A stretch of 64,000 nucleotides of DNA from Diphasiastrum complanatum (taxonomy: Eukaryota > Streptophyta > Lycopodiopsida > Lycopodiales > Lycopodiaceae): positions 7,164,613-7,228,612 of the forward strand of contig CM055108.1 of the NCBI GenBank assembly GCA_029204225.1, read 5' to 3'. The notes beneath the pieces are model-generated. The model was not told where the DNA came from, ran no database searches, and worked only from the letters and a program-made list of their open reading frames with translations. Shown piece by piece: positions 8,236 through 19,093 of this stretch. Positions within the stretch are counted from its first letter, which is position 1. Each line of letters opens with the position of its first letter. Both the position numbers and the translations under genes were made by a program.

Positions 8236-9125
8236 ATGGATTCTCAAAGTAAAGCCGGTCTTATCGTAGACAAGCTGAATGGATCCAATTATCATTTATG
8301 GAAATTTAAGATGAAGACCTTGCTAATTGCCAACGAGTTGTGAGATGTTGTTACAGGTTTTGAAGTGAAGCCTGAAGATGACATAGAAGACTCGAAATGG
8401 AAAGGATGGTAAGGCTTTCGCGCTCATTATCCTCAATATATCAGATACTCAAATTGGCCACGTAGTTGAAGCCAAAAGTTTGGGACATCTTGAGCTCACT
8501 ATATGATGTGAGAGACGTAACTACCAAGTTACATCTTCGAAAGAAAATTTTTATACTCAAAATTTTGAATAATAATTCTCTTCAGAATCCTATTAACCAG
8601 TTTAAGAATTTCTTGCAACAGATGGCCATTGTCAGATCAGTCATACGCAATTATGACATTGCTTTCAAGCCTGCCCTCTACATATGAGAACTGGGTGATG
8701 ATCATCACGACACACTCAAATTTAACTCTTACCAGAGTTATCACTATGTTGTTGCAAGAAGATAATTGAAGAAGTCAAGACACTCCGTCTCATGCTCTAT
8801 ATGTCAACAAGGGCTTGAAATGACAAAAGTAGAAAAGATCCAAGCAGTCTACATCGAATCAGAAACAGACTCAAAGTCAAGAACAATTATCAAATCCACA
8901 TTCGTCAAAGAAGAACGCCTTACAGCACAAAGAAGTATGTTCATCTTGGTGATGATAGCACTCAAGCTATCGAAGGTGAAGGTACAGTAAGATTAAGGTT
9001 CCAACATGATCAATTCAAACTACTGTCAAAAGTCTTGTATGTTCCTAAACTCTCTACAAATCTATTATCAATAAGTAGAATTACAGATTTAGTTCAACGG
9101 AAAAAAAGAATATATGCTTTCAAGT
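8236..9125 (+). pseudogene. Copia A gag to protease end, broken
   Basis: The ATG at 8236 opens MDSQSKAGLIVDKLNGSNY, followed by HLWKFKMKTLLIANEL, the standard copia Gag N-terminus, then a stop. Later frames give further Gag pieces (INQFKNFLQQMAIVRSVI near 8600). From about 8985 a frame reads GEGTVRLRF and LLSKVLYVPKLSTNLLSIS, the C-terminal part of the aspartic protease region. It continues as FNGKKEYMLSSK up to 9128, where homology ends at the nested insertion. No catalytic DSGA motif is visible, so the protease core is deleted or unrecognisable. Confidence 0.75.
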
Positions 9126-9219
9126 AAGATTATGTTTTAAACTATTCATGTGTTTTGTTTCATCTAGCACTCAATGGTTGTGAATTATTTTTTTTCTAAA
9201 TCTTATTTTTCTTTTGCAG

Positions 9220-10866
9220 ATCAGCTTTAGTCACCAATGAAAATCTGAAAGACAAGGACATGATTGGAAAGTCTTTGAGTGCAGTACTTACAACCAAGTC
9301 AACAACGAGTCTACTTGGAAATCAACGATATTCTCGAATCAAGTCCAAGATTGTAGAGGCCCTTATGGGCGAAGTAGGCAAGATCATTGACCGAAAATTG
9401 AAACAAGGAGCATGTGATTATTCTGGTATTAGCAGAGTTGCATATGACACAATGTTTAAAATTATCAAAGAGGCATTTGGACAAGTACATATAAGAGAAT
9501 TTCCTATTCCTCGGCCCTTTCAAATCAAATTAGAGAGGGATGTGTTAAACAGGGGTTTGCAAAACATCATTGGTATTTCTTACCATATAAATGAAATTGA
9601 TAACTCAAAACATGGCACTTTGTCATATGATTCTACCAACAATATGTTTGTAGATCTGAATCATTGACTGAGATTTATTGTGAAGTTTTATGGAATCACA
9701 AATGAAAGTGTTGAAAAAATGATATTAATTCTCAAGGTAGATGAATCAGAAGTAATAAAGGGACAAAAGCTGGAAAGGGTTAGTGTTACAATTATGAATG
9801 GAGCATTCAGCAATACGATAAACTAGAGAGTCTTGATTTCAGTGTGTAGTCCAAAAATAATATTTGGTGGTTAGCAGCTTTCCAGGTTTAAATCTATTCT
9901 ATTGAGTACTAGCAACTAATTCATTTTGAGAATTAATGGTTTTGTGTTTTAAGCTAATATTGTTTTGTTATTATTGTTCTGAGTTCAATTCTCCTAAAAT
10001 AGTTCATGATTTTGTGTTTCAAACAGGTTTTAAAAGAAGATTATGACATTCTATTTTGGATTTTTAATAAAACATAATATTCAGAGATAATTAAGAATCA
10101 TATGAGCGACACACCACTCAAAGTTCCTGGAATAGGTGATTTTAAGGTGGAATGGCATTTGGCTGGAGACCTGAAGTCGTTGAAGTGCATGTTCAACGTC
10201 TCACATGGAGCAAATTCAAAACATCCATGCCTCTATTGCATGAAAACTACACATGACATGTCGAGGAGAACGAGAGTTTCAAGGGATATAGAAGATCCGA
10301 CTTGGAAACCAGTATTATCGATTCCGCTTGAAAATGTTCACATTTGTACACTACATGGAGAGGTTAGAATTATCAAAAATTTGATATACCTTCATATTTG
10401 GTTTCTTTGGAATACTAAGCCAGAGTCATAAGCCAAAAAGGCAATAGCTCGATTGGAAGAAGTTTTATCAAAAGCGGGACTTCATAAAGGACACGTTAAA
10501 ATACAAAAGGACGAGAAGCTTTCAGGGAAATCGGGAAACATCCCATGCAAACCAAGTATAGGAGGATCCAAAGCTCATCATTTCTTATCACATCATTTTG
10601 GAAAACCAACTAAAATCAAGTACTCAATTTGGATAGATGTACTGAATGCCACAAAGGATTTTGAAGAAAAAGGAACAACGAGGATAAAAAAAGTTGAAGT
10701 CTGGACAAAGCTTGACAACATGGTCAAATTGCTCAGAAAAGATAAACTATCTGATACTGATGTCCTACTAATTGAGAAATCAACAATTGAGTTTGTGGAT
10801 GCAGTTAAAGACGCCTGGGGTGAAGATCATATTACGCATTATATGGTAGATCTCTTTTCAATGTAA
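9220..10866 (+). pseudogene. Transposase-like protein with D / CxxC / H motifs, broken by in-frame stops
   Basis: A plausible acceptor (TTTTGCAG) precedes 9220. One frame then runs through DYSGISRVAYDTMFKIIKEA and MILILKVDESEVIKGQ to about 9820, interrupted by a TGA at 9665-9667. After an AT-rich gap an acceptor at 10026 reopens coding sequence: VEWHLAGDLKSLKCMF, then HGANSKHPCLYCMK, then CTLHGEVRIIKNLIYLHIWF, KAGLHKGHVKIQKDEKLSGK and SIGGSKAHHFLSHHFG, ending near 10850. There are further in-frame stops near 10076 and 10429. An acidic residue followed about 20 residues later by CxxC and then a His-x3-Arg block resembles the zinc-binding arrangement of CACTA/Mirage/Chapaev and Transib transposases. 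I cannot name the superfamily. The first exon and the third catalytic acidic residue are not located. Confidence 0.5.
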
Positions 10867-10916
10867 CTAACTCTTCGATTTATAATCTCATTGCACATAT
10901 GCTAAATTTAAAATGA

Positions 10917-12176
10917 TTAAAATGACAATATTTGTATCTCTGATATTGCAGCACATTTTACAACATCATGCATCATTTTTTGCAACAGCTTACGGCAGTC
11001 TAAGTATTTGGTCATCACAAGGAATGGAGAAATCACATTGGCAAGCCAGAGCAACATTTCATTGTCTCTCTTTGCAAAAATAATTTTATATGTATTCGAA
11101 GGGTATTTATGCCTATTTGAGAAAAAGGATAACGCTTTAATTGCCATTATAATTGTCGCAGCATCTGAAGAAAATTTGCTATGATGAATGCAAATCTCTT
11201 TATTTACAAAGCACTTCAAATAATTGGACAGAGATGAATCCCTTTGTCGTGATCCCTGGCCTTCCCTCAAATATCCCTGCCTTGTTGCAAAGGCATCCAC
11301 CTCAATAGTAGCTTGTAAAATACGAGTAAATGTCACATGTCTTGAAAAACAAAATAACTATATTTGAATAAAAAACTCATTAAGATAAAACCAGATTTAC
11401 CTACCAGATCACGCTCATCAGCTTCAATAAGTGCAGCAGTATGTAGATCATGACCAGCAACAATGGTCGTCGAAGCATTGGATGGACTAGTTTCCGAAGA
11501 CCGTGACACATATCTGCTCTAGATTTTCAGAAAGTTCTCCTCACCGGGCAAATTTGCCTGGTATGCCCTGCTTTCAGACATGATTGACTGCAGTGCTTCA
11601 GTCCCATCCATCCATTCATCTCCGTCTTTGTAATCAATAGAAGCACGTAGATCATCATCACCGTCGAGATCTATGAAGTCCCCGAATTCTTTGATGAAAT
11701 TAGACAAAATTGATAATATTCATCCTCCCTCAAATCAAGAACATCTCCAACATCATTCAGTGAGAGGTATGCGAGACTATTCATGTAATACACTGGCAAA
11801 TCGAGGAGAGTCTTGGTTTTATCATATGGATTCACGTCAGATAAGGAAGAAATGGACAATACATGAGACTCGGCTGGGTCGTACATTGATGCCAATCTTG
11901 CCTCCTCGTCAGCACCCAATCAGTTGATGATGAGGCATCATTAATGCTAAGCCTCGAAGTTCTTGCCTCATCAGGAATAAGAGCAGAAAGATAAAACACA
12001 AAGCCCATGCCTTCCTGCAAAAAACGACATGATCGATTGTGCTGGTCACAATGGACCACACGTTTAAAATCACTCATGATTTTCGTGAATCGTCGGTTGT
12101 GGCTTTGCTTTAAAGATGGTTGGGCAAGTACTAGGTCATGAAAATGGATGAATCGTAGATTATCCATTATCAACAT
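10917..12176 (-). pseudogene. Unidentified intron-containing gene of the nested block
   Basis: From an ATG at 12176 the minus strand reads MDNLRFIHFHDLVLAQPSLK and RSCRFLQEGMGFVFYLSAL, to SRLSINDASSSTD. A frame change near 11920 follows, then EEARLASMYDPAESHVLSIS and LNDVGDVLDLREDEYYQFC, then acidic LDGDDDLRASIDYKDGDEWM. After a GT-AG intron (about 11337-11402) it reads HVTFTRILQATIEVDAFATR to about 10930. I recognise no domain. The gene faces away from the histone/Ulp1 gene and shares an upstream region with it, as ORF pairs in plant DNA transposons often do. Frame changes may be introns or decay. Confidence 0.4.
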
Positions 12177-12328
12177 AGACTAATTTAGACTATCATAATA
12201 CTCTTTATACAACACTAGAAAATAGGATTTATGTTCTGATCCAAACCTCTCAATATCAAAAGACATATTGAAATACGTCGTATTAGAGGATGAGCGGCCA
12301 TCTTGAAAGCATGACCAGTATGGCCGAG

Positions 12329-13260
12329 CATCGCTACAACGCGGGGTGGCAGGGAGTCAGAAGACTATCAAGACTTTCTCGCGTGATGGCGATATTGGCG
12401 AATGACTAGATATCGGAACGACGTGAGAGATCTTAGATCGTCTAGAATCTCTAAAAGATTCTTGCATGGTAGCAATACTGCAAAGAAATAGTACTGTTCA
12501 CACACAGAGAGATACAGGGAGCGAAAATCCAAAACTTAGCGAAATGTTTTAACTGATCAAACAACATTTATATAGCTAAAACCAAGAAAATCCAAGCCGT
12601 ACACTCGTCAATCCAACAACGGATCAAATCTATGGCACGTAGTACAACCGTCCACATGTGCGAGACCACAGTGCTACAATATGCGTCAATCTGCCATTCG
12701 CCCACGTGCCCACACGTGCGAGAACACACGTCACAAAACCATTCAACCACGTGGCCACACGTGCAAGTTTCACACGTGCGGATATAGAGGTGAAGGTCCC
12801 ATACGTTAGGTATTGATTGGGCCACGTGACCACACGTGCGAGCCTATACGTGCGAGAACATATGTCACTGATCCATTCAGCCACGTGTCCCCACGTGGGA
12901 TCCCACACGTGTTGATCTGGACGTGCAGTTTCACACGTGCGTATACAGACGTGTGGTTCCACATGTTAGCTATTGATTGGGCCACGTATCACTGGTTCAC
13001 ACATGCCAAATTTTCTCCCCTATAGAAGTCCATTCCCGAGGATTGTACAGGTTTTCGCACAATTCGCTGTCACGTTTGATTGCATCCATACGAAATGCAT
13101 TCGTGATATCGCCATCATGCGAGCGACCTCCTCCCCATGCCTATTCCTTACACCCTCTCGCGTCATAGCGATATCAGTGTTACTTTCCCAGTATCGCCAT
13201 CACGCGAGCCCCTGCCTCTCCCTGCCTGACTCTACCACTCTCTCGCGTCGTAGCGATATC
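12329..13260. repeat. Six copies of an ~18-base motif in alternating orientation, TCTCGCGTSRTRGCGATA
   Basis: Copies of TCTCGCGTGATGGCGATA or its complement lie at 12377-12394 (+), 13106-13123 (-), 13156-13173 (+), 13191-13208 (-) and 13242-13259 (+). A degenerate copy is at 12329-12344 (-). The last four form two tandem units of about 85 bases, each bounded by an inverted pair and each with a pyrimidine-rich, CCTGCCT-like centre. They lie between the divergent genes of the nested block, just upstream of the histone-fold exon. Binding sites for the element's own protein are possible. Confidence 0.8.
12640..13010. repeat. ACGTG-rich imperfect tandem repeat
   Basis: Many CACGTG or ACGTG(T/C)G cores occur within 370 bases, in phrases such as CCACGTGGCCACACGTGC. 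The phrase TATTGATTGGGCCACGT appears at about 12810 and again at about 12972, so the block is partly a tandem repeat of roughly 160 bases. G-box cores are bZIP/bHLH sites in plants, but the regularity suggests repeat expansion. Confidence 0.7.
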
Positions 13261-13323
13261 ACCGTTGGAGTTCTCAGTGTCTCTTCTACTGTGTCTCTGT
13301 CCTTGAGTAGTATAGATATTCAG

Positions 13324-15184
13324 GCTCGGACGAAGCAAACCGCTAGGCTTACTAGTTTCGTTCAACCGTCCCGTCCCCAGACATCTGAACCCATACATCC
13401 GCAAGGACGCGGTAGACCTCGTCGTCCATGGTTGAGGGACATTAGGGCCTTGCAGAGGAGCACCAAACTTTTGATCTCGAAAGCAGCCTTCTACCGAGCT
13501 GTGGGGGAGGTTACACAAGACATGACCACCCATCTGCCCTATGCAGTGAGGTGGAATATCACTGCATTGGAGGCCCTCCATACTGCATACGAGGACTTCC
13601 AGACAAAATTGTTTGAGGATTTGATGTTGTGCTCCATTCATGGCAAGAGGGTGACATTGATGCCCAAGGACATGCTTCTTGTCATGAGGCTTCGAAACAC
13701 CTGTGACAACATTTTTAAGTCTGGATTCACACAGAGGCAAGTTCCTCTTGAAAGGGGGCCTGTCCCACCCCGCAAAAAGAGAAAGCAAGCATAGCCCAGG
13801 CGTTCGCAACCCAAGTCTCCCAGCTCTTCACCCTCACCTCCTCCCATTAGAAAAGATCTGGCTAGTACGTCCGCAATTCCACTGGTTGAGAGTCCTCCCG
13901 TAACCCCTGATCTTCAACTGCACGATTCTCCTTCTATACATGAGGATGAGCTAAATACAGTGGTGGACATGATTGTTTATGATGTTGATGCAACTGATAA
14001 AGAGTTGCACATCAGACTTCCGAATGAACCTAAAGACACATTTTTTTATTCTAAGAGGTACATTGATTTTGGCCTGTATATAGCCAAGAAAATAGATGAT
14101 CTCGAAGGGCAGTTTACGTTTTGTATAGACGATATTAATTTTGCAATGCATATCAAAGACCCGCATTGTAGGGAGCTAAAAGAGGAGACCTCATATATCT
14201 CAGACACAATAGTTGAATCTGCTTGTGCATACTATGTACATAAATATACATATACAGTCACGAAGGAGATTTTTGTTGTATCTCCATTTTTTGGGCATTT
14301 GTTGAATAAAGAGAAGAAAGAGAAGAAAGCCAGAACGCTCTTCAGGTACACTAGCAAAGAGGCATCAATGTTCATCATCCCATACTATTCAAAGTAAGAT
14401 AGTTTCTTCTTGTAATATCTGTTTTCTGTAAGATTTGTCTTTTGGAAACTCTTATAAATTCTAGTAATTCATTGTTTGTCTCTTTCTGGTAGCAAACATT
14501 GGAGTGTGCACGTCATATCCATGAAAGTGGATTCGATTGGAAGCTGCACACCTGTGTGCATGACAATGAATTCTTTGCATGCCACCCATTCCATGATTAA
14601 ATCCATGTACAAAAGGATGGTGGAGCTATTGCCCAGGCCGGATGGGCTGGTTGTAAATACCAACATAGAGGTTGTTGATGCAAAGGTAAAAAGAATCTTT
14701 TTACGTATTTTATTTGCATGATGGCATGTAGTTTAGAATTATAATGAATTATAATTTAACAATTTTTCGCTGTGATTTCTCAGTCTTTGCAACAAGATGA
14801 TGCTTTCAGCTGCGGATGGTATTCAATCTGGAATGTTAAATCATTCTTGGATTGGTATATGGTGCAACCTCCAGATGCTAGTATCCGTGAGGTATTTTTT
14901 TCAATGTTCAAGTATCCTGATGATATATTGTTAACTTTGTGAATTTAAATATTTTAAAACATTGGCTAATACATACATACACTCGATATTTTTTTTTGCA
15001 GTTCCAATAACCTGAGATATCAACAAATGCGATTCATCAGTATCGACATGAAATGTTGGAAATTTTACTATCGTGTGCAAGGCCCTACAAGCATGAAGGT
15101 GCCTCAGATGAACCTGCCAGGGGATCCGTGGATGAGGTTACAATGCTCGAGGATATGCCTCAGGCACCTTTGATTGAAATGTAA
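13324..15184 (+). pseudogene. Centromeric-H3-like histone domain fused in frame to a Ulp1/SUMO-type cysteine protease (one TAG between them)
   Basis: An acceptor (ATTCAG) at 13323 opens ARTKQTAR, the start of histone H3. An AT-hook-like GRGRPRRP follows, and then a complete H3 fold (13432-13695): LRDIRALQRSTKLLISK, an extended loop 1 with VRWNITALEAL, and LFEDLMLCSIHGKRVTLMP. The RW pair, MLC and VTLM resemble plant CENH3 more than canonical H3; K9 is Leu. A basic PPRKKRKQA is followed by TAG (13792-13794). The same frame continues through a Ser/Pro linker into a C48 domain with exons to 14393, 14493-14685, 14784-14891 and 15002-15184. Catalytic His is in NKHWSVHVI and Gln/Cys in QQDDAFSCGWYSIW; the usual Asp position looks like Asn (MNSLHATH). 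A TAA at 15008-15010 breaks the last exon. The true start codon is not settled: the frame is open from 12973, but that part covers the repeats. Confidence 0.75.
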
Positions 15185-15676
15185 TTGTTGTCACATAAGT
15201 TCCGACAGACACATAGAAATATATCATCACATGATGATCCATAGAACAATAGATAGGCAAATAGAAAGTGGGCTATTACTGAATGCCACAAATATATTAT
15301 ATCGATTTCAAAAACAATGTACATTTTTCAAAATACTAAATACAAATTGTTCGATGAAATCTTGAAGCCATTTGAGACTTCTTTGTATTTTTTTTTTTGA
15401 AAAAGTACATTGATGTTGCTCGTCTATCATCCCAATGTTTATGCAGTTTCAACAATTTCTACGCTTCTATTTAAGTCCTTGCACTTTATGCAACTTTCTT
15501 GTCTTGGTCTTACCTGTACATCAAAGAAACTTGTTAAACAATATCAACATTGAGATTATGTCAAATGAAATATTGCAATACCGAAAACACTAAAACAAGT
15601 TTAAATAAAATCACTGAAAGTCATTTCAAATGTGTACTGAAATAAATACACATACACCTACCAATCTCTCGTTGAC

Positions 15677-16949
15677 TCAAAAACAGAAGTGTTTAGGAAT
15701 ATCATATTGCAGCAATGTAAGCTCTGATCGAATGTGATCGAGTGTCCAATCTTCTTCCACCTCAATTATTGTAAGAGTAGAATTATTTCTCCTCACTTGA
15801 ATTTCTATTTGATCTTGATGATTCACTATAAAATCCTGATCCAATGCTTTCCATCCATTGCCAACTTTGGACCATCTTCTATAATAAAATCTTAAAGAAA
15901 GCACTTGTTTTTCTATAAGATATCTAAATTTCATTGACGATCTATTAACTATGCACTCGATATTGCCATTACTCTTTTTATCCCAATGATCATCAAGGAG
16001 GCTTGATAACGTATTGTCTGTTAAATCACTACAAATAAACATTGTCACTGTTTTACGAATATTACATTCAACAAAAATTGCAATAGGAAAAAACCAGTGC
16101 AATCTATTGTTTTTTGAACCTGTGCTACATTTCATACAGTTTTGAATGTCCATAGAAAACCTTGATCAGAAGCTCTCTGCTATGGTGGAATCTGGACGAA
16201 TCCATTCTTCGCTTGAGAAAGAGGGTAATGATATCGCCTCTAATTTTCCACCTAAACTGGATGGTGTGTAAAATGGATCATAGAAGAAAATATAGGAATC
16301 CAAAAGTGATCTCATGGAGCGGTTCTTGTACTGCAGAAGACCAATATCAGAATGAATAACGTCCATGATGCCGACAAGGGATTGTATAGGTTGCCATTCG
16401 ATTATGCTTGATGGATACAAATCTGCACAAATCCATAAAATTATATGTCATTTAAATACTCAGATACACGTCTAAATGATTAATACAAAGCTCAAAGCAA
16501 AAAATTCTCCAAAACTTACAATTGCATTTGAGTCTGTCATTTGAACTTACGCCTTCCACTCTAATTTCCTTATGCATGTAGACATGTTGAATCAAGACCT
16601 CTGAAATGGATCGACCACCGGGTGAAACTTTGAAGTCTAAAATTCTACCTTTCCAAAAATTCCTATAATCCATATTTGATTTTCTCTTTTTACCAAAAAT
16701 ACCTCTTGATGAGGGATGCATGAGAACCCAGTGAAATTTTCTATAGATACGTGGTATCCAAGAGCCATCAGAGTCTTTTTCATTACAAGCAGAAATTGAG
16801 ACAATATTGCTTCGTGGTCTACGGCTTCCGAAAGCCATTGCAAAGCTAAAAGAAGATGAATAACAGAGTCTGAAACAAAATGTAGTTGAATCAGTATGAA
16901 AATAAACAACCAAATTTGTAATAAATGTTGGCGGTCTTTCGTAAATCAT
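15677..16949 (-). pseudogene. Unidentified gene of the nested block, possible ubiquitin-like C-terminus
   Basis: From an ATG near 16839 or 16949 the minus strand reads MAFGSRRPRSNIVSISACNE, then GSWIPRIYRKFHWVLMHPSS and ILDFKVSPGGRSISEVLIQH. It leaves through a GTAAGT donor near 16521. After an acceptor near 16421 it reads LYPSSIIEWQPIQSLVGIMD to a TGA at 16163-16165, then the same frame continues from MDIQNCMKCSTGSKNN to FDCF-type tail sequence ending near 15677. The last part (TLTIIEVEEDWTLDHIRSEL, then YDIPKHFCF) has the strand-helix-LPxxFxF look of a ubiquitin-like fold, which is only a visual impression. The TGA may lie in a small intron or be decay. Confidence 0.4.
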
Positions 16950-17229
16950 ATATGTTACTCTAACTACGATTAGATCAAAATAGACTTACTTTAACCACAA
17001 GTGTTATGTCCCGGGCACTCAATAAACTCATGGGCAGCAATTACGGTCCAATCACAAGTCAGGACCCTGCCTGGCGGGAGTTTTGAATTGTCTAAAAATA
17101 TGACCGGAAAGTTCCAAAAAAGAAATCGACTGGCAACAACGTTACGGTCTTTTACAGGTGTAAATATATAACTGGGCCAAGTGTATGTCGATTAGTTAAA
17201 AAGTCAAAAACAGCATCTTGACAAAAGGC

Positions 17230-19093
17230 CCTTTTGGTGCTCAAAACTCCTCTAATGAGAAAAGGCAAAGCCCATGTAGCTGACTTGTCCGACTCGTCCG
17301 ACATATTGAGCTTTGAGGTTCCTCAGTCGATTATTCCTATTGAAGGTCCAAGCTCATCTACTTTTGACGAACAACATATTAATGACAAAGTCGAAGATGA
17401 TGATGTTGTGGTTCAACAACTACTGCATGATGAAAATGATCAACTTCTTCTATTCTCCAGAAGATCATCAAAAACTAGTGACCACCTCTATTAGGTGTAT
17501 CAATGAGTCTACAGCCTACCTTGTTCAGGAGCCGACGATTGTCGAAGAGGCACTCAGTCAGACCGATTCCGATCTCTGGAAATAAGCTATGGAGAAAGAG
17601 TATTCATCTCTTATCAAGAACCAGACATGGAAAATTGTCGAATTACTTGTCTAGCAGAAACATAGTTGATTGCAAATGGATTTTCAAAGTCAAGTACAAA
17701 ATGGACGGAAGCATCGACAGAAGAAAATCCCGACTTGTCACCATAGGATTTTCTCAGGTATACAACGTCGATTACATTGAGACCTTCAGTCCAATAGTCA
17801 AGCATTCTTCTATTCGACTTTTATTATCGTTTGTTGTTGCAGCAGATTTGAAAATACATCAAATGGATGTACAGACAACATATATCCATGGAGTTATCAA
17901 ATAAGACATTTACATGATGCAACCCGAAGGTTATATTATCGAAGGTAAACACAATCATGTGTGTAAACTCCATACAACACTTTATGGCTTGAAACAATCT
18001 ACTCGAGCATGATTTCAAAGGATCAATACTTTCCTTATTGATCACGGCTGTACACAAGCTCTTCAGATTCGAATGTTTACTTTAAGACAGTGTAGCAGTC
18101 TTTTATCATTATTACTTTATATGTGGATGACACATTGCTCTTTGACAACAATATCGATCTGATAAAAGAAGGCAAGACAATGCTATCTTCTGAATTCGAC
18201 ATGACCGATCTGAGTGAAGCTCATTTCTGCCTTGGTATTCAAATCCAAAGAGAGAGAAATTTAAAATTGAACTACATTACTCTGCAGAGGTACATCTACA
18301 ATATGTTAGTCAACTATAATCTGGTTAATTGAAAGTTAGCTTTCTCACCAATGGAACCAGGTCTTAAATTGTCGAAGGACCAATGTCCTCGAACAATCAA
18401 AGAGAAGGAGCAGATGCGTGAGTATTCTTATCATTTGATAATAGGATCTATGATGTATGTAATGATCTATACTAGGCCAGACATAGCTTTTGCAGTCAGC
18501 TCCCTAAGTCAGTTCATGACTAACCTAGTATAACACATTGGAAGGCTCTTATCAGAGTCATGAGGTGGATTTGTTATGGATCAGTTGACAACAACAAACG
18601 CAATTTACTCAATGGTTACACAGATGCAAGTTGGGCAGGAGATGTAGACCCTCGTAAATCCACTTCTAGATTTACATTCTTCCTCAACAATGGTCTAATT
18701 TTCTGGAAAAGTCGAAAGTAATCTTTGATAGCTCTATCTTCTATAGAATCAGAGTACATCACAGCCTCACAAGCTACAAAAGAAGCAATTCGGTTGAGAA
18801 ACTTACTTTCAGATATCGATCTGAACCAATATGCTCTGACATTATTATTTTGTGATAATCAAAGTGCCATCGCCTTGTCAGCCAACCCTAGATTTCATTC
18901 TAGGAGTAAGCACATTGAACTCAAGTATCACTATGTCAAAAGCAAAGTTCTTGACAAAGAGGTCAGATTGCAGTATTGTCGAACACAAGATATGACAGCA
19001 ACTATTTTTACCAAATCATTAAGCTTGGATGCACACAGAAAGTTTTGTGCAGAACTAAGTTTAAAGGTCAAGGCATTCATGGATTCAGATTAA
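17230..19093 (+). pseudogene. Copia A reverse transcriptase and RNase H, broken
   Basis: Coding resumes with the acidic linker (HVADLSDSSDILSFEVPQSI). RT pieces follow: NIVDCKWIFKVKYKMDGSID, LVTIGFSQVYNVDYIETFSP, IYMMQPEGYI and LHTTLYGLKQSTRA. The catalytic strand reads LYVDDTLLF (near 18118-18144; normally YVDDI). RNase H is represented by YTDASWAGDVDPRKSTS, SSIESEYITASQATKEAI, LLFCDNQSAIALSANPRF and HSRSKHIELKYHYVKSKV, ending at the TAA before the purine tract. Frameshifts near 17500 and 18010 and several stops inactivate it. Confidence 0.85.

Follow-up and report, generated by a model that had tools for sequence, protein, structure and literature searches.

A multicopy clubmoss transposon carries a gene predicted to fuse an H3-like histone module with a Ulp1-type domain

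Transposon genes that counter silencing are already known. In Arabidopsis, the KIU genes are the Ulp1-bearing VANC genes of Vandal elements (non-TIR MULEs). VANC-type proteins counter silencing via short motifs that lie in non-coding parts of the element, and the function of Ulp1 in VANC genes is stated to be unknown (PMC13317346, in the available part of that article). The small ubiquitin-like modifier (SUMO) acts in silent chromatin (PMC8131101, available part), and elements of the CMCT type are defined by a DDE transposase whose second D and E enclose C(2)C and H(3-4)H (PMC12730594, available part). Here we describe a gene on a DNA transposon of the clubmoss Diphasiastrum complanatum, found in a stretch of 64,000 nucleotides (the window; contig CM055108.1, or G000:C17:7164613-7228612 in the searched genome of 1.74 Gb). 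The gene is predicted to encode a single protein with an ARTKQTAR tail, an AT-hook-like patch, a histone H3 fold, a Ser/Pro linker, and a C48 (Ulp1-like) domain. Ulp1 domains on transposons and CMCT elements are already known, and the new part is the fusion to H3: a literature search, with most subscription papers and repeat libraries such as Repbase outside its reach, found no transposon in which an H3 module is joined to a Ulp1-like domain.

The fusion gene lies on the forward strand and has four exons bounded by GT-AG introns, and apart from stop codons, the H3 fold and the C48-like domain share one frame. Exon 1 (13324..14393) encodes the H3-like N-terminus ARTKQTAR and then the AT-hook-like GRGRPRRP (together 13324..13428), the H3 fold with its alphaN, alpha1, alpha2, and alpha3 helices (13429..13701), the Ser/Pro-rich linker (13795..14040), and the N-terminal part of the C48 domain (14041..14393). 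The tail, the patch, and the linker were recognised by reading the sequence, and the start of the C48 domain by Pfam and profile searches. Exon 2 (14493..14685) contains the histidine motif HWSV and the motif MNSL, with an Asn at the presumed catalytic Asp; exon 3 (14784..14891) contains QQDDAFSCGW, with the C48 Gln and Cys; and exon 4 (15002..15184) completes the gene. The original prediction, made from the window alone, had described a transposon-borne fusion of this layout, including the AT-hook-like patch and the HWSV and QDDAFSCGW motifs spread over four exons, and all of this was borne out. It had also placed ARTKQTAR right after a splice acceptor, which was mistaken: the supposed acceptor is an 8-bp deletion that removed the start codon, and 19 of 21 other copies have an ATG directly before the ARTKQTAR codons. 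The single TAG that it reported (13792..13794) is indeed in frame, but there is a second in-frame stop, a TAA at 15008-15010. With its start codon deleted and two in-frame stops, the window copy is a dead relic. (The 21 other copies include six near-identical partners, one of which is the partner of the window copy itself.) Of the 22 rows compared, which include the window copy, 11 have ARTKQTAR without a change.

The fusion is present in many copies. A DNA search of the genome with 1,074 nt of exon 1 yielded 924 candidates, and all 40 that were scored matched at 92-100% identity and keep both parts of the gene. The window itself is among these 40, and 36 of them span essentially the full query. 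Protein searches with the histone (6,776 candidates) and with the exon-1 part of C48 (3,949 candidates) gave matches for all 150 candidates that were scored in each case. Half of the 150 listed histone matches (75) are followed closely by a listed C48 match in the same orientation, and in 46 of these 75 pairs the spacing is exactly 150 bp; no listed C48 match lies within 3 kb on the other strand. Chance adjacency of the two domains was considered and rejected, as many copies keep both parts in this coupled arrangement.

The H3 module is supported by several methods. The histone piece matches PF00125 (E = 2.4e-21), its best chain in a PDB search is H3.3 (E = 6.7e-21), and an AlphaFold2 model of it (mean predicted local distance difference test score, or pLDDT, of 75, with block means of 83-92 over residues 51-120) has the helix order alphaN, alpha1, long alpha2, and alpha3. 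Foldseek matched this model to nucleosomal H3 (E = 4.5e-7, probability 1.00). A full H3 fold had been proposed from the letters alone, with structure prediction named as a check on it, and the model agrees with the proposal. The core is identical to H3.1 at 39-50 of 88 residues, and we compared the contact residues as well, in both cases against a reference H3.1 sequence not taken from a database. R52, R69, R83, E97, D106, H113, R116, T118, D123, L126, and R129 are kept in all three families that we compared (the window family and those of L051 and L048, described below), so that most of the residues of the H4 and H3' interfaces and of the DNA contacts are preserved.

The C48 domain is identified with less certainty, but its motif order, together with matches to PF02902 and to SENP2/Ulp1, makes the assignment probable. 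The window's C48 piece scores 22.7-23.0 bits against PF02902, where the curated cut-off is 20.7 bits, and in a PDB search with a profile of the C48 alignment (A4), SENP2/Ulp1-like chains were the top four of seven matches, with weak E-values (0.55-0.84). The His, Gln, and Cys of C48 are present in the window copy. A different Asp, 13 residues before the Asn site, is invariant in A4. Any deSUMOylating activity of this domain is our inference.

We read four more loci, chosen for their long open frames among the 137 weaker matches (69-77 bits) of a genome search with an Arabidopsis CENH3 core, described below, and hence not a random sample of its 150 scored matches; three of them (L048, L050, and L051) are fusions and one (L049) is not. 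L051 has a Met followed by ARTKQTAR, the H3 fold, the linker, and the N-terminal part of C48 in one frame of 405 codons. Further downstream it has HWS and MNSL in exon 2, which contains a frame slip, and QQEDGHSCGW in exon 3. In L048 and L050, within the sequence read, the H3 fold is joined to a region that can be aligned with the N-terminal part of C48. Between the window family and L051, the proportion of differences in the H3 fold is 0.72-0.77 at synonymous sites (pS) and 0.19 at nonsynonymous sites (pN), and between L048 and L050, the ratio of nonsynonymous to synonymous divergence (dN/dS) is 0.061 for H3, 0.37 for the linker, and 0.34 for the C48 part. For the linker, dN/dS between L051 and L048 or L050 is 1.17-1.29, and constraint is absent. 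By these comparisons, two anciently diverged families in the genome have the layout of H3 plus a C48-like region, with synonymous sites near saturation and a conserved H3 fold. Because the fold is conserved despite near-saturated synonymous sites, and dN/dS is low, we conclude that selection has maintained the H3 module as the transposon lineage evolved, and that the transposon has carried the fusion gene for a long time.

Some of these loci have other unusual features. L049 (G000:C17:8896450-8897750, minus strand) has an H3 fold, scoring 94.8 bits with Pfam Histone, after a different protein region that we did not recognise, and is perhaps another H3-bearing repeat family. L050 (G000:C7:53543900-53545200) has a transposase-like fragment directly 5' of its H3 region, and its synonymous divergence from L048 is 0.63 in H3 and 0.18 in the C48 part, a pattern of mosaic or recombined copies. 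L038 (G000:C17:7308200-7318199) is 99.7% identical to window positions 12709-18328 over at least 5.6 kb and lies 135 kb away on the same contig; five more pairs of copies are near-identical, and these pairs may be recent duplications or assembly duplicates. Beyond this genome, a protein search with the fusion, as the original prediction had recommended, found no other H3-C48 protein among 8,000 scored candidates, and distant fusions may be missed because only these were scored. It did return two proteins from other sources, P0002 (835 aa) and P0003 (407 aa), with an H3 fold within a longer protein, but C48 is listed for neither.

The element that carries the gene occupies 9094..17258 (forward strand) and is a 5'-truncated copy, as delimited by alignment with 10-kb genomic copies and by the ends of other copies. 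The 5' end, taken from three copies, is CATTA(C/G)AGGAGTT...CCAAAAGGGC. The 3' end is its imperfect inverted form: in the window, the 3' terminal inverted repeat CATTAGAGGAGTT...CCAAAAGGGC is at 17228..17257 (reverse strand), and the element ends in ...TAATG. Two copies were read at both ends and measure about 9.9 kb and 8.5 kb. The ends CATTA...TAATG have the form 5'-CA..TG-3' with terminal inverted repeats, as in CMCT transposons. A degraded and partial transposase gene (9220..11059, forward strand) encodes GDLK...CxxC at 10165 and Hx4H...GMEKS at 10952. The C(2)C and H(4)H that characterise CMCT transposases are present in the window and in three copies, two of which have stops in the H(4)H part. 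A protein search (7,999 candidates scored) found 39 homologs of the transposase, including a relative in the charophyte alga Klebsormidium, and the model of one homolog (P0030) matched the RAG1/Transib fold. From these motifs and this modelled fold, the element looks to be of the CMCT type (RAG1/Transib/CACTA-like). Pfam gave nothing convincing for the transposase, for 27 of the 39 homologs, or for the other open reading frames (ORFs) of the element, with no score above a curated cut-off and, in the tally for the transposase homologs, no E-value under 0.015. A PDB profile search with the transposase alignment found no match, and a scan of viral contigs with it found no relative. When the element's ORFs and the 27 homologs were scanned with Pfam, no MULE profile was listed. 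The original prediction had cited as known that Ulp1 domains ride on Mutator and CACTA elements; CMCT includes CACTA, but Mutator was replaced by CMCT given the RAG1-type fold. KDZ, which was also considered, was dropped after the RAG1/Transib match.

Other features of the element include pieces of an ORF at 11336..12179 (reverse strand; longer in L028, with 304 aa, and in L029, with 285 aa) and ORFs at 15680..16985 (reverse strand; also in L028), none of which matches a Pfam family. Upstream of the fusion gene (12703..12939) is a cluster of 11 CACGTG (G-box) palindromes. Under a first-order Markov null, the 401 bp counted would have 0.78 of these on average, with a maximum of 4 in 1,000 simulations. 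The cluster may be a promoter or a set of motifs that a protein of the element could read. No tandem repeats were found upstream of the fusion gene. Fragments of Copia-type pol, recognised by eye, flank the element copy (window 8901-9093 and 17259-17904), and the middle part of a full pol seems to be missing from them.

A many-copy transposon gene that joins an H3-like module to a Ulp1-type domain suggests that a selfish element may supply an enzyme of its own, tethered to a histone, to act on host chromatin. Given the architecture, the number of copies, the presence in anciently diverged families, and the conserved H3 fold with most of its contact residues, we lean, with some reserve, towards the view that this accessory gene of a multicopy CMCT-clade transposon encodes a protein that is tethered to chromatin and removes SUMO or another ubiquitin-like protein (Ubl), countering silencing. 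The H3 module would bind H4 or histone chaperones and bring the protein to chromatin, perhaps into nucleosomes. There, the C48 domain could act on host silencing factors or on the transposase of the element, stripping them of SUMO or another Ubl, and this deSUMOylation might help the element to evade silencing and move. A bolder version, which we put forward as tentative and rather doubtful, is that the element has its own replacement H3, fused to a deSUMOylating or SUMO-binding enzyme and built into host nucleosomes, which marks and de-silences the chromatin around the element. If true, this would be a transposon-encoded nucleosome variant represented in one plant genome by at least 150 H3-like matches that were scored and, going by the thousands of first-look candidates, possibly by thousands of copies.

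Several observations weigh against the reading that we favour. The presumed catalytic Asp of C48 is Asn in all 15 rows that cover the site (the equivalence was judged by eye from the general C48 pattern), and the Cys is missing in two of those 15 rows. The C48 match is modest: single exons scanned alone had none in Pfam, and none was listed at E ≤ 1 for the full protein of the open copy or for L048. L051 scores 16.9 bits, which is under the cut-off, and four of six members of A4 match PF02902 (scan at E ≤ 10; best 2.2e-6). In the H3 module, each of the three families has R63 and R128 altered; R72 is changed in the window, and R49 and C110 are changed in L048. Half of the histone matches (75 of 150) have no C48 partner among the matches listed, which the limit of 150 on each list may explain. 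In neither of the two copies that were read at both ends did we see a target-site duplication, which is 2-5 bp long in CMCT transposons. Finally, the young subfamily lacks an excess of third-position changes in a codon-position tally of 16 rows (near-identical L020, L025, L030, L031, L037, and L038 were dropped; 15 of the 16 cover exons 2-3), although pairwise dN/dS among four young copies is 0.17-0.47 for the H3 fold and 0.33-1.09 for the C48 part.

The same data can be read in other ways. The two domains might be separate genes, or a host gene pair that was captured together, with the continuous frame an accident. A TAG does separate the two domains in the window copy, as it does in 6 of the 21 other copies, and the one deposited annotation that we saw (O6H91_14G014700 from D. 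complanatum, or P0004; 137 aa and 85% identical to the histone piece) spans the histone part only. We nevertheless consider this highly improbable: the other 15 copies have a sense codon at 13792, as the original prediction had suggested looking for, so that the stop there is secondary; 1 of the 21 has an uninterrupted frame across all four exons, from its ATG to the terminal stop; ten loci that are in both match lists have both domains inside one open frame of at least 350 codons; L051 is continuous as well; and in 60 of the 75 pairs, the gap between the histone and C48 matches is divisible by three (match ends are approximate). Alternatively, the protein could be a histone mimic, a decoy or bait for H4, chaperones, or readers of the H3 tail that never enters nucleosomes and whose C48 domain binds rather than cuts. 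The presence of ARTKQTAR, the canonical N-terminus of H3, in both the window and L051 families would suit a mimic, as would the Asn in C48 and the altered H3 contacts. However, R83, R116, and T118, which we take to be contact residues, and H113, D123, and R129, presumably H3-H3' residues, are kept, which is seemingly more than a decoy needs, and we think a mimic unlikely.

It is similarly unlikely, in our view, that the module was captured from the host's centromeric histone (CENH3) and directs either the protein or fresh insertions towards centromeres. That a mobile element had captured a CENH3 was part of the original prediction, which cited an RW pair, a longer loop 1, MLC, and VTLM as marks. 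All of these are present in the window family, but L051 lacks the loop-1 insertion and has TLC, and L048 has RF, LLA, and VTIM. In the PDB search, chains of Cnp1 ranked fifth and sixth (E = 3e-20), behind H3.3 and H3, and ARTKQTAR is the N-terminus of canonical H3. In a tree, five element histones grouped together (91/81, a fork that is not starred) and outside the clade of Arabidopsis, rice, and maize CENH3 (98/94); the plant and human rows of this tree were not taken from a database, its deep forks are unresolved with bootstraps not settled, and it contains no lycophyte CENH3; the host's own was not found. A genome search with an Arabidopsis CENH3 core (5,526 candidates, 150 scored) gave 13 matches at about 98 bits, which we took as host H3 with their sequences unread, and 137 at 69-77 bits. 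The approximately unbiased (AU) test rejected neither joining the element histones to CENH3 (p = 0.40) nor joining them to H3.1 (p = 0.099); the element histone is of the H3 type, and the data neither support nor exclude a CENH3 origin. With the marks failing in relatives and the tree unresolved, the claim of a captured CENH3 is not supported.

Among known proteins and elements, the H3 module has the fold, the ARTKQTAR, and many of the H4- and nucleosome-contact residues of H3 and CENH3, but its tail diverges after R8, it has the AT-hook-like patch, and it is fused to C48 at its C-terminus. The C48-like domain has the HW...Q...C order of Ulp1/SENP SUMO proteases and differs in its Asn and its weak similarity. 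The element itself resembles CMCT elements in its RAG1 fold and CA..TG ends, but differs in matching no Pfam transposase family and in the lack of a visible target-site duplication. Fungal DNA transposons (CMCT and others) that bear TET/JBP genes also have an accessory gene that possibly acts on host epigenetic marks, but there it is a dioxygenase that acts on DNA rather than a histone-protease fusion, and Ulp1 is absent from the available part of that text (PMC12730594). If the clubmoss protein works as we propose, it would be a natural H3-tethered SUMO-protease module, and whether a mobile element edits chromatin by supplying its own histone could be tested. The gene also links a lineage of RAG1-fold transposases, found in a clubmoss and with a homolog in Klebsormidium, to a putatively chromatin-directed accessory function. 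A close parallel is KIU/Vandal, where a plant DNA transposon likewise carries a Ulp1 domain in one of its accessory genes. Vandal elements belong to the Mutator superfamily, and no histone is mentioned in the available part of PMC13317346, whereas the clubmoss element is CMCT-like and the partner of its Ulp1-type domain is an H3 module. By analogy with the Ulp1-bearing VANC of Vandal elements, and with the part that SUMO plays in silent chromatin, the role of the fusion is likely a comparable one, chromatin-tethered deSUMOylation against silencing.
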